A stretch of DNA of 64,000 bases from the NCBI GenBank assembly GCA_947628705.1, contig CANRAZ010000005.1, forward strand, positions 1-64,000, written 5' to 3'. The position numbers were made by a program, and so were the translations under genes. Below, in pieces: positions 17,299 to 22,425 of the stretch. Numbering within the stretch: the stretch's first letter is position 1; every line of letters starts with the position of its first letter. The notes below the pieces were generated by a model. It was not told where the DNA came from. It saw only the letters and a program-made list of their open reading frames with translations, and ran no database searches. Origin of the DNA: an uncultured Lachnospiraceae bacterium (GTDB taxonomy: Bacteria > Bacillota > Clostridia > Lachnospirales > Lachnospiraceae).

Positions 17299-17501
17299 TA
17301 AATCTTATTTAATTTCCTCGCGCTTTTTGTTTAAGCGTTCTTCTTCTGCTTGACCGCTCCGCTTCACAGCGCGGTCAAAAGCGGCCTAAGCCCGTTTGTT
17401 ATATCATAAAATATTATCCGCCGCTTTGCAAGCGGCAACGGCAGTAACTTTTGTAAAAAAACGGCATAATATGTAAAGAATAAATTTTCAGAGCCGAAAT
17501 T

Positions 17502-17759
17502 ATGCAATCAAGATGTGATTTGTTACTTCAGCTTAGTACCACCGGATTTGCCATGGATGACATACGGCTCTTCCTCGACACGCACCCCGGTGATACCAAA
17601 GCGATAGAACTCTTCAACGAGTATGCCAAGAACTATGCTGCCCTTGAGAAGGAATATACCGAAAATTATGCCGGTTTTACCTCCTATTGCAGCAATAACG
17701 ACTGTAATATGTGGGTATGGAACGACTACCCGATGCCATGGGAGGGGGATTGCAGATAA
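17502..17759 (+). CDS. cotJB: Spore coat protein CotJB
   Basis: LSTTGFAMDDIRLFLDTHPGDTKAIELF and WVWNDYPMPWEGDC, CotJB-like; stop overlaps the cotJC start (TAATG). Confidence 0.9.
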   Translation: MQSRCDLLLQLSTTGFAMDDIRLFLDTHPGDTKAIELFNEYAKNYAALEKEYTENYAGFTSYCSNNDCNMWVWNDYPMPWEGDCR

Positions 17760-18313
17760 TGTGGATTTATAAGAAAGCTCTTCAACATCCGGTCAACATA
17801 AGAGAATGTAATCCAAAGCTTGCTCAGGATATCTGCTCGCAATTCGGAGGACCTGACGGAGAACTCGGAGCATCGTTAAGATATCTCAGCCAGAGATATA
17901 CGATGCCTTACAAAGAAGTTTCGGGACTGATGACAGACATCGGCACAGAGGAACTCGCCCACATGGAAATCATCTGTACGATAATCTACCAGCTTACCAA
18001 AAACCTCACTCCCGAAGAAGTTGTTGCCAGCGGCTTCGACAAGTACTACATCGATCACACGACGGGCATCTATCCGGCCGCTGCAAACGGCATGCCTTTT
18101 ACTGCCGCTTATCTTCAGAGCAAAGGCGATCCTATCACTGATTTGTATGAGGATATGGCCGCTGAACAGAAGGCCCGCACGACCTATGACAATATCCTCC
18201 GTATCTGCAAGGATTACCCTGACGTAACAGAAGTGATAAAATTCCTCAGAGAAAGAGAGGTTGTTCATTTCCAACGCTTCGGTGAAGCGCGACAATCAAG
18301 GTGGAATGGATAG
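17759..18313 (+). CDS. cotJC: CotJC (spore-coat manganese-catalase family), 5' part; reading frame interrupted by an inserted element
   Basis: MWIYKKALQHPVNIRECNPKLAQDICSQFGGPDGELGASLRYLSQRYTMP...REREVVHFQRFGE; homology ends at 18285 and the frame terminates after a non-homologous ARQSRWNG tail. Confidence 0.93.
   Translation: MWIYKKALQHPVNIRECNPKLAQDICSQFGGPDGELGASLRYLSQRYTMPYKEVSGLMTDIGTEELAHMEIICTIIYQLTKNLTPEEVVASGFDKYYIDHTTGIYPAAANGMPFTAAYLQSKGDPITDLYEDMAAEQKARTTYDNILRICKDYPDVTEVIKFLREREVVHFQRFGEARQSRWNG
18280..18309 (+). other. attL-like junction: CGGTGA core plus inner arm ACAATCAAGGTGGAATGG
   Basis: Core CGGTGA (18280-18285) shared with 22332-22337; inner arm 18292-18309 is the inverted repeat of 22312-22329 (16/18). 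Confidence 0.85.
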
Positions 18314-18491
18314 GCGGAGCTGCTGACAAATATTTCATCTATTACCTTCGGACAAGCATATTCGACCGCGGACAAGCCATACTATCAAACAGAAAACTAT
18401 TCCGGAAAAATGACGGCGACACTACTTGACAAAGCGCTTATTCGGTGCTAAAGTAAAGTATAATTTATTTTAACACCGTTGGAGATTTGGA

Positions 18492-19718
18492 ATGGATTAT
18501 ATCAAACGAGATCTGGAACGAAAATTCCTTCACATGAGCGCCGCTTTCAAGGCGGTCATGGTCGTCGGCGCACGGCAGGTTGGCAAGTCCACCATGCTCA
18601 AGCATCTTGCCGAAGGTCAAAATCGAACCTATGTGACAATGGACGACACGCAGCTTCGCGCTTTCGCACAGACCGATCCGAAACTGTTTTTACAGACCTA
18701 TCAGCCCCCGCTCCTTATTGACGAGGTGCAAAAGGCGCCGGAGCTTTTTGAGGAGATCAAGATCCTTTGCGATGAAAACGACGCGCGCGGGCAGTTCTGG
18801 CTGACGGGTTCGCAGAGCAAAAAGCTTGTTAAAAAAGCAGGCGACTCTCTCGCCGGCCGGCTTTGTATTTTAAAAATGTACAGTCTGTCCGCAAGAGAAA
18901 AGCTCTGCGTCGACCCGGCAGGTGAACTTGACTTTTCTCTTCAATCTTTGACGGCTCGCAAAAAACTGTTCGGGCAGAATCATATCCTTACGACCTTTGA
19001 AAACATCTGGCGCGGCGGACTTCCCGACGTGCAGGAAAAGGACGAGGAGCAGTTGGGCGAGTATTTCAATTCCTATATTGAAACATACCTCATGCGGGAC
19101 GCGGTGGACGATTACGGAATTGCCGATACCGAGGGCTTTCGCAAATTTTTGCGCGCTTGCGCCGCTTTTACGGGGCAGCTTGTCAATTACAACGACCTCG
19201 GTGCTTCTGCCGGCGTGTCCGGCGTGACGGCAAAGGAATGGGTAAAGGTTTTGCAGTCGATGGGGATCATCTTTCTGCTGGAACCATATGCCTCCAACGA
19301 GTTGAAACGCCTGACTAAAACACCGAAGCTGTATTTTTGCGATACCGGCTTTTGTGCGTATCTGTCCTCATGGACAACGCGGGACGTGTTGATGAACGGT
19401 GCGGCCAGCGGGCACTATTATGAAAATTATGTAATTGCCGAACTGCTGCGCCACTACGCATATGGCAAGAACAAGGTCAATTTGAATTATTATCGGGACA
19501 ACAAGATGAGAGAGATCGACCTGATCATCGAGGAGAACGGTGTTCTTCACCCTGTGGAGATCAAAAAAGCCAGCGCGCCCGACAAAAGTGCGGCAAAATC
19601 CTTTTCCGTACTGAAAAGCGCCGAACGTACTGTCGGTACCGGCGCCGTGATCTGTATGTCAGACATCGTGCTCCCGCTGGATGAAAATGCGCTGATCGTC
19701 CCGTCGAATCTGATTTGA
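18492..19718 (+). CDS. AAA ATPase with C-terminal DUF4143 (element cargo)
   Basis: VVGARQVGKSTMLKHLA Walker A, LLIDEVQKAPELFEEIK, LTGSQSKKL, C-terminal EIDLIIEENGVLHPVEIKK. Confidence 0.85.
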   Translation: MDYIKRDLERKFLHMSAAFKAVMVVGARQVGKSTMLKHLAEGQNRTYVTMDDTQLRAFAQTDPKLFLQTYQPPLLIDEVQKAPELFEEIKILCDENDARGQFWLTGSQSKKLVKKAGDSLAGRLCILKMYSLSAREKLCVDPAGELDFSLQSLTARKKLFGQNHILTTFENIWRGGLPDVQEKDEEQLGEYFNSYIETYLMRDAVDDYGIADTEGFRKFLRACAAFTGQLVNYNDLGASAGVSGVTAKEWVKVLQSMGIIFLLEPYASNELKRLTKTPKLYFCDTGFCAYLSSWTTRDVLMNGAASGHYYENYVIAELLRHYAYGKNKVNLNYYRDNKMREIDLIIEENGVLHPVEIKKASAPDKSAAKSFSVLKSAERTVGTGAVICMSDIVLPLDENALIVPSNLI

Positions 19719-20080
19719 CGGGCGACGTACACGCATAAGTAAGCCCTTTTCGCATTTTCTGCACGTTTGTTAGAAAATTGTTAGAATTCTTTTAGAACGA
19801 AACCCGCAGGATTTTAGGCGTAAAGAAACGGTTGGCGCATTAGATTAGGTGTCTCATTAGTAGACCATAACCAATAATTATGTTTAGAGAAATGTTTAGA
19901 GAAAACAATGGGAATTTTCAATTTTGCGCTATGGTCGATTTAAATGAAGATGATGCGCTAACGACATTAGATCAAACGTTACAGCAAACGCCACTTAGGG
20001 AAAAAGCGAAATTTAATGATAGCTTTGTCTACATACCTTTATTACAGTGGTCAACTACATAAAAAAAGAATAACACGAAA

Positions 20081-20146
20081 AATACCGTTATGCAGCGCTT
20101 TGATTGAAAGATCTGCCAATAGCCACATAACGGTATTATTATATTT
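20081..20146 (+). terminator. Hairpin / possible terminator inside the element
   Basis: Perfect 12-bp inverted repeat AATACCGTTATG/CATAACGGTATT followed by ATTATATTTT. Confidence 0.45.
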
Positions 20147-20547
20147 TCTTAAAAATCATCCGTCCAATATTACATACACCCACATTCCTAAAACACGAAA
20201 AAAGAGCAATCGAAGGGTCAGGGCAGCTAATACTAAATGCTGAACGCCGCGATATTGCCGTATTTTCTGCTCAATATGGCGATATTATCTGAAAATAATG
20301 AAATGGCACGGGCTTCGCTATAGGTTCGCACAGAAATATAATCATCGCCTGTCAGACGCAAAGGACCCGTGCCGCGAGCAAAAATTGACCGAAACACTTG
20401 GTCACGGGCGGGTTTCGGTTCTGAAAACGTATCTTGCGTGATTCTCCCGATCACACTCTGCCGCGCAAATGGACATAGTGGACAAGGGCAAGTGCATATT
20501 TTGTAACCAGCACCGAAAATCATCGCAAAAAGAAAGGGATAAGCTGC

Positions 20548-20736
20548 GTGACAACGTATACAACCCATATCAGTAAAATCGAAACAGGCAACAAAACCAT
20601 CACCGTCGTGAACCTTACGCCGCAGCATTCTGCGGACGAAAGGAAGGAAATCAAACTTAAGATCGAACTGCAGCTCTACGACGTATTCTGCAAATACTGC
20701 CCGCAAGGCATTAAAAACGACGAGGTTCTACTGTAA
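20548..20736 (+). CDS. Small protein directly upstream of the serine recombinase (candidate recombination directionality factor)
   Basis: 62 aa MTTYTTHISKIETGNKTITVVNLTPQHSADERKEIKLKIELQLYDVFCKYC...; ends 50 bp before the recombinase; role inferred from position only. Confidence 0.5.
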   Translation: MTTYTTHISKIETGNKTITVVNLTPQHSADERKEIKLKIELQLYDVFCKYCPQGIKNDEVLL

Positions 20737-20786
20737 AATATAATTGTCAGCAGTTCCGCTTCTTCTTGCGAAGAAGGGAGTAAAAG

Positions 20787-22295
20787 TTGAGTCTTTTTGA
20801 TGCCATTTATACAAGGCAATCGGTTGACCGAATCGACAGTATATCTGTGGAAAGTCAAGCCGAGTTTTGCAAAAAGGAAGTGATCGGGCAGGAAGTCAAG
20901 TTATATACGGACAAGGGTTACAGCGGAAAAAACACCGACCGCCCCGCATTCAAAGAACTGATGCGGGACATCCAGGCGGGAAAGGTTCGGCGGGTGATCG
21001 TCTATCGGTTAGACCGAATCAGCCGTTCGGTATTGGACTTTGCAGGCGTGATCGATGTCTTCCAAAAGCACAACGTGGATTTTGTCAGCACCATGGAAAA
21101 GTTCGATACCGGAACACCCATCGGAAAGGCTATGCTGATGATCGTGATGATTTTCGCGCAGTTGGAGCGGGAAACGATTCAACAGCGGGTCATCGACGCC
21201 TACGCCTCGCGAAGCAAACGGGGCTTTTACATGGGCGGGCCGGTGCCGTTCGGATTTTGCCTTCGCGAGACCACCATCGACGGCGTGCGCACCAAAATGT
21301 ATGAGCCAGTAGAGGAAGAGACCGACATTGTGCGGCAGATTTTCTCCCTGTATGCCGAACCGCAAACTTCTTTCGGCGATGTGATGCGGTATTTAGAAGA
21401 ACACGGTATTTTTAAGCGAAACGGGAAGTTGTTTAATCGCAGCCGCATCCGTGACGTGGTCGTCAATCCCGTCTATGTCCGTGCAGATTATCAACTCTAT
21501 GACTTTTTCAAAGCGCAGGGCACGGTGATTGTCAATGCGCCGGAAGACTTTATCGGTACGAACGGCGCCTACCTATATTCCGGCAATGAGAAAAAGCGAA
21601 AATCGGTATCGTTAGTCGGTCATACGCTGGTGCTTGCGCCCCATGAGGGATTCATCGATTCCGATACCTGGATCAAATGCCGATTAAAGTGCCTGAACAA
21701 CCAAAGCGTTGCCAAGCCGGTCAAGGCCAAAGCAACGTGGCTGGCCGGAAAAATCAAGTGCGCCTATTGCGGCTATGCCCTCACCGCCAAGATATACCAT
21801 TGTAAAACCAAAGCAGACAACCGCTATTATCTCTGCAGCAACAAATACAACACTGGGGGCTGTCATTTTAGCTCACTGGATGCCGATGTAATCGATGGAA
21901 TCGTATTTGAAGAAATGCAGAAAAAACTTACGGAGTTCAAAACCCTTTCCAAACAAAAACGGGATGACGGCAACCTGCAAAGAATCGAACGGAAAGCCAA
22001 AATCGAAGCGATCGACAAGGAAATATCTGCCCTACTCGATAAAATCCCGTCCGCAAACGACACGGTAATGGCGTACATCAACAGGCGCGTTGCCGAATTG
22101 GACGCGCAGAAAAAGGAATTGTATACGCAGATCGCACGGCAGGATAAAGAGTACGGGGATAACATCGAGGAGATCAACGGATATATGGAACACTGGGAGG
22201 ATCTGTCGGTCAGCGACAAAATCACGGTGGTGGACTGCTTGGTAGAGAATATCCACGCATCCAAAGAGGAAATTGAAATCAAGTGGAAAATCTGA
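20787..22295 (+). CDS. Large serine recombinase (resolvase/invertase N-terminal, recombinase and zinc-ribbon domains)
   Basis: IYTRQSVDR catalytic-Ser region, VIVYRLDRISRSVLDF, FAQLERETIQQRV, zinc ribbon IKCAYCGYAL...YLCSNKYNTGGCHF, C-terminal coiled coil. Confidence 0.95.
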   Translation: MSLFDAIYTRQSVDRIDSISVESQAEFCKKEVIGQEVKLYTDKGYSGKNTDRPAFKELMRDIQAGKVRRVIVYRLDRISRSVLDFAGVIDVFQKHNVDFVSTMEKFDTGTPIGKAMLMIVMIFAQLERETIQQRVIDAYASRSKRGFYMGGPVPFGFCLRETTIDGVRTKMYEPVEEETDIVRQIFSLYAEPQTSFGDVMRYLEEHGIFKRNGKLFNRSRIRDVVVNPVYVRADYQLYDFFKAQGTVIVNAPEDFIGTNGAYLYSGNEKKRKSVSLVGHTLVLAPHEGFIDSDTWIKCRLKCLNNQSVAKPVKAKATWLAGKIKCAYCGYALTAKIYHCKTKADNRYYLCSNKYNTGGCHFSSLDADVIDGIVFEEMQKKLTEFKTLSKQKRDDGNLQRIERKAKIEAIDKEISALLDKIPSANDTVMAYINRRVAELDAQKKELYTQIARQDKEYGDNIEEINGYMEHWEDLSVSDKITVVDCLVENIHASKEEIEIKWKI

Positions 22296-22311
22296 TTTTT
22301 TTATCGTAATA

Positions 22312-22337
22312 CCATTCCATGTTGATTGTAACGGTGA
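22312..22337 (+). other. attR-like junction: inner arm CCATTCCATGTTGATTGT plus CGGTGA core
   Basis: Inverted repeat of 18292-18309 (16/18); the CGGTGA core restores the cotJC frame. Confidence 0.85.
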
Positions 22338-22425
22338 GGGACTCAGGATCGTTCAGGATAATCTTGACAGCAATAACTTCTACATCTGCAATCCTGAATT
22401 TGACAAAAACTGCGGCTGCAAATAA
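22338..22425 (+). pseudogene. cotJC: 3' segment of cotJC (disjoined coding segment)
   Basis: Translates in the correct frame as (E)GLRIVQDNLDSNNFYICNPEFDKNCGCK*, the expected CotJC C-terminus; has no start of its own. Confidence 0.92.

Follow-up and report, generated by a model that had tools for sequence, protein, structure and literature searches.

The intervening elements known from spore genes are a handful of single cases, with sigK, spsM, spoVFB, gerE and yabG being the interrupted sporulation genes on record (PMC10747680). For skinCd of Clostridioides difficile it is proven that the recombinase gene is expressed constitutively, while excision is restricted to the mother cell by a directionality factor of 72 aa that SigE and SpoIIID control (PMC5025042). 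We analysed a window of 64,000 nucleotides from an uncultured Lachnospiraceae bacterium, in which the coat gene cotJC is split by an element of apparently similar design. In a literature collection with few subscription papers, searches pairing cotJC with a recombinase, a prophage or an intervening element gave no report of such an interruption.

The start of cotJC at position 17759 lies directly 3' of cotJB (17502-17759; PF12652, E=1.2e-23; all features are on the forward strand), both genes being assigned by Pfam matches. The 5' piece of cotJC (17759-18285; PF05067, E=1.7e-49) is collinear with CotJC through FGE, of which GA occupies 18284-18285, thereafter runs out of frame and as it stands stops at 18311-18313. 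The 3' piece (22332-22425) opens with CGGTGA at 22332, the same hexamer as at 18280, and encodes GEGLRIVQDNLDSNNFYICNPEFDKNCGCK followed by a stop. With the break at 18280/22332 the element measures 4,052 bp. The sequence-only reading had claimed that the gene is split in frame by an element with a large serine recombinase. Both parts of the claim were borne out: joining the pieces at the common CGGTGA yields 615 nt, i.e. 204 residues plus stop, and the element encodes a recombinase of 502 aa (see below). The break sits inside the conserved HFQRFGE codons. When the joined protein was aligned with uninterrupted CotJC of relatives, as had been suggested, the C-termini matched, that of a same-genus species (G044, locus L077) being GEGLRIVQDNLNSKNFYICNPSFDKNCGKQ. 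The proposed survey for empty sites led to the same species. Its intact cotJC is syntenic, and because the flanks of L077 are homologous to those of the window on both sides it represents a natural empty site. Judging from an 18-nt inverted repeat (16/18) at the element ends and from the same codon being struck in dozens of other genomes, the split is not a product of chance.

No second orthologous cotJC was found in the window genome; this is an 86%-complete draft of 89 contigs, so a copy may be missing. On another contig it encodes a Mn catalase 33-34% identical to CotJC. Three same-genus genomes (G299, G300, G301) show no cotJC. The 5' piece still encodes residues 1-178, which align with Mn catalases of solved structure, and the truncated product might keep activity.

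The left end of the element, attL (18280-18309), consists of the core CGGTGA (18280-18285) and the element arm ACAATCAAGGTGGAATGG (18292-18309); attR (22312-22337) consists of the arm CCATTCCATGTTGATTGT (22312-22329) and the core at 22332-22337. The arms form the inverted repeat mentioned above, with the G|A of the core as its centre of symmetry. By their symmetry the paired ends are identified as an attP of the large serine integrase type, which can be reconstituted from attL and attR. Between them lie, in this order, an ATPase as cargo (AAA_14/DUF4143; 18492-19718; PF13173, PF13635), a stretch poor in coding content, an ORF of 62 aa (20548-20736) and the recombinase (20787-22295; domains Resolvase, Recombinase and Zn_ribbon_recom; phrog_95 integrase, E=1.5e-98). 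The attL side (18314-18333) and the recombinase leader (20740-20759) are connected by an inverted repeat of 20 nt, and the stretch 5' of the ATPase (18444-18465) resembles that 5' of the recombinase (20724-20745) by 82%. No phage capsid, tail, packaging or lysis genes were recognised in the 4-kb element and no relaxase or mating-pair genes among the ORFs of 18286-22331; thus it classifies neither as a prophage nor as an integrative conjugative element. Its removal restores the frame of a sporulation gene and it has both a large serine recombinase of its own and the att sites to match, as an intervening element does.

A phage origin was considered and not retained, the best match among phage records being 30% identical; closer homologs occur in viral contigs, rarely at cotJC. 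Recombinases of the IMG/VR contigs L247-L269 are 54-58% identical to that of the window. Uncut attP-like sites just 3' of the recombinase in viral contigs have the GATTGT-N14-ACAATC arms of the window and a different core. The same arms with another core indicate that the target of the recombinase family has switched from or to cotJC.

Recurrence of the split was surveyed in 299 genomes of the bacterial family of the window, mostly one per genus. Strong relatives of the window recombinase were present in 31 genomes, and in 12 of these, the window included, they reside in cotJC at the same codon. Among named genomes 46 of the best 80 loci with relatives of the recombinase adjoin cotJC; the records with a recombinase at cotJC bear names such as Lachnospiraceae, Oscillospiraceae, Ruminococcus and Butyricicoccus. 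Together with a second recombinase family described below, about 23 of the 299 genomes have a split cotJC, while any cotJC match was seen in 181. Two of the assemblies with a split are finished, L137 being from the complete chromosome of Anaerocolumna sp. MB42-C2 and G282 being in a single contig. Joining over a GGTGAAGC-type core or close variants rebuilds CotJC in most loci with both pieces, the gene in three pieces at L170 among them; exceptions are L109 and the first site of L121, where no join could be resolved. Element size is mostly 2.2-7.7 kb, with about 25 kb in G262. The cargo is varied and by eye of metabolic appearance in L053, L168, L170, L049 and L174 (an acyl-CoA dehydrogenase-like gene with a LysR-type regulator, a TauE-like transporter and a pyrophosphatase-like gene), and does not consist of phage genes. 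Among L130, L273 and L275, a contig filed under a Saccharibacteria MAG has a recombinase and flank that are very similar to viral contigs; a binning error is possible. The window genome has sequence matches to SigE, a SigK-like factor and SpoIVA, and SpoIVA was positive in 22 of 23 hosts of a split cotJC, G208 not being listed.

The split of cotJC is not limited to one site or to one recombinase. In L170 and G273 the gene is in three pieces, and the first break, at codons 133-136, is associated with a different recombinase of about 22% identity. Strong relatives of this second family are found in 19 of the 299 genomes, in 12 of them in cotJC at codons 133-136. Insertion of this family at these codons was seen at L190/L326, L191-L200, L208/L336 and L170:5989-7587, in about a dozen genera. 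Other breaks are near codon 30 (L174, L049, L326) and near codon 60 (L121, L167, L168, L115, G262). The breaks fall in the most conserved motifs of the protein, GGPDGE, TDIGTEELAH, AAEQKAR and HFQRFGE.

Upstream of the recombinase most relatives have, at a fixed place, a member of a small ORF family of 54-62 aa with the signature NLxP...IExxLYxVFxKY. The 62-aa ORF had no match in Pfam, NCBIfam, PHROG or PDB; by its position it is a candidate recombination directionality factor. Alignments of the otherwise unalignable DNA 5' of the small ORF revealed one conserved block, ATA-N17-CATAnnnT, which in the window reads ATAGTGGACAAGGGCAAGTGCATATTTT (20475-20502). It matches SigE promoters with ATA at -35 and a CATA-type -10 (PMC3789822). 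The 450 bp 5' of the recombinase were scanned for ATA-N16/17-CATAnnnT. The signature was present in 28 of 50 cotJC elements vs 2 of 31 relatives, with 1.5 and 0.6 expected from shuffled sequences. After L128 and L131, which have diverged tails, were reclassed as cotJC elements the numbers were 29/52 vs 1/29 for related non-cotJC elements; viral contigs with related recombinases had it in 4 of 79 cases. The second family has its own small ORF and SigE-type signature, which was found in 13 of 14 cotJC elements vs none of 7 others. In all these counts related rows are not independent, and the signature is shown by at least three clades of the two unrelated families. SigA-like TATAAT sequences are nearer to the recombinase in relatives.

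In its composite form, which has GKACWWG in the spacer, the block occurs once in the window genome. Across the family it also occurs 5' of tnpW/tnpX-type elements and of a few other recombinases; hence, it was rejected as exclusive to spore-gene elements. The form ATA-NN-GKACWWG-N8-CATA precedes tnpW/tnpX-type genes at L215 (G191), with identical sites in G025, G148, G169, G133 and G262. Because at least one such element is inserted in another recombinase gene, i.e. outside spore genes, the block may be a promoter common to mobile elements of spore formers. SpoIVA was present in 10 of 10 non-cotJC hosts of block-recombinase pairs vs 196 of 299 genomes overall. Interpretation of GKACWWG as a SpoIIID box was dismissed, as it misfits the C. 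difficile consensus KRTAACARK (PMC5025042) and the ACTTG variants are without the ACA core. Within the window genome no simple ATA-N16/17-CATA was found in the 400 bp 5' of sigK or in the vicinity of spoIVA, so the SigE promoter reading is without a control from its own genome.

The cotJB-cotJC operon is preceded by a SigK-type promoter signature, AC-N16-CATAATAT (17447-17472), and a signature of this type is present before cotJ in 8 of 10 intact relatives as well. SigK acts later than SigE. With a SigK-type signature at cotJ and a SigE-type signature at the small ORF, excision would come before cotJC is used. In C. difficile cotJB2-cotD is under SigK control (PMC3789822).

Taken together we consider it probable, and the likeliest of the readings, that the locus harbors a skin-like, non-phage intervening element, which is excised in the mother cell by its recombinase and a SigE-controlled directionality factor. 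Early in sporulation SigE would switch on the 62-aa ORF at 20548 in the mother cell, and its product would serve the recombinase at 20787 as directionality factor. This would join attL to attR, free a 4-kb circle and rebuild cotJC ahead of the transcription of the cotJ operon by SigK. The forespore would retain the element, which would thereby be inherited, though the coat protein would be made whole. An exact search for both excised junctions in viral contigs, a collection ill-suited to such junctions, gave none. The sequence-only reading had likewise proposed a skin-like element, and the anatomy it described, i.e. in-frame split, recombinase and restorable gene, holds. On the other hand, the intact C-terminus, which it took as evidence against pseudogenisation, is a weak argument by itself, because the elements have moved between hosts recently. 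The recombinase proteins of L132 and L133 are identical, whereas their C-terminal cotJC pieces are 10 silent changes apart, a contrast showing recent transfer between species. Thus intact pieces alone are no proof of function. Likewise, dating of the insertion from silent changes was unworkable, since near-identical recombinases adjoin diverged cotJC pieces. Stronger support for a skin-like element comes from the recurrent codons, the two unrelated recombinase families, the three-piece genes and the SigE-type and SigK-type signatures.

The same recent passage between species would also be expected of an ordinary site-specific mobile element, for which the conserved cotJC codons are a benign attachment site. 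It would excise rarely, for transfer, with CotJC lost or replaced by another catalase. The other Mn catalase of the window genome fits this explanation, as do the intact second cotJC kept in some hosts and the serine-integrase relatives on phage contigs and plasmids. Yet a SigE-type signature enriched only in cotJC elements, and this in two unrelated recombinase families, speaks against a benign site. Moreover, no second orthologous cotJC was found in several split hosts, G000, G123 and G142, and although the breaks at codons ~30, ~60 and 133-136 fall in the catalytic core, the pieces have stayed intact, those of three-piece genes too. We therefore regard an ordinary mobile element as unlikely. 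We give even less credence to a decaying pseudogene, i.e. an insertion that was fixed, does not excise and left cotJC dead. Without excision the downstream piece is indeed untranslatable as a part of CotJC, and the additional recombinase copy of G264 (L208/L336) has stop codons. But C-terminal pieces were free of stops and frameshifts in 50 of 50 cases, and att arms, small ORF and recombinase of the element are all intact. Against the sister species pN/pS was 0.09/0.87 for the 3' piece and 0.17/0.71 for the 5' piece, the 3' piece being no laxer; thus decay of cotJC is very improbable. A joining of unrelated contigs within cotJC, conceivable for a draft of 89 contigs, is refuted by recurrence of the structure in dozens of independent assemblies, the two finished ones among them, and mis-assembly cannot produce the att symmetry.

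Beyond the proposed skin-like element of the window, we see about an even chance that cotJC is a hotspot of Clostridia, where small serine-recombinase elements from several unrelated families cut at conserved motif codons (~30, ~60, 133-136, ~175) and have convergently acquired a mother-cell SigE promoter for the excision factor. Every sporulating mother cell would then splice the gene at the level of DNA, in some cases from three pieces. If true, small non-phage elements that recur in one coat gene across genera, with two at once in some of the genes, would show that mobile DNA generally can persist by hiding in a mother-cell gene and leaving only in the doomed cell. Such elements would supply many natural replicates for studying the evolution of developmental recombinase control. 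Furthermore, many gut genomes probably have cotJC read as truncated, although the gene may be rebuilt in them.

Among the known systems skinCd in sigK of C. difficile resembles the cotJC element in that both split a sporulation gene in frame and encode a large serine recombinase, and both have a small ORF of directionality-factor size behind a SigE-type promoter, recognised by its signature in the cotJC element; in the relatives examined here SigA-like sequences are directly 5' of the recombinase. In contrast to sigK, cotJC is a structural coat gene and not a sigma factor, and the present element has 4 kb, no phage genes and is known from its sequence. Gin in gerE of Bacillus cereus ATCC10987 is also non-phage and combines recombinase and small accessory protein (GirC and GirX in gin), but with 28.6 kb and three recombinases it differs from an element of 4 kb with one, and it belongs to another class of host and interrupts another gene. 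SPbeta, which occupies spsM of Bacillus subtilis and has SprA and SprB, is alike in that a spore-envelope gene is restored by a recombinase and a small directionality factor, as proposed for cotJC; yet SPbeta is a full prophage, while the cotJC element is without phage genes. Finally, vfbin in spoVFB of B. weihenstephanensis and yin in yabG of C. botulinum, the latter described as prophage-like, are intervening elements in mother-cell sporulation genes as well. Each of them is from one or few strains, whereas the cotJC elements recur across families.
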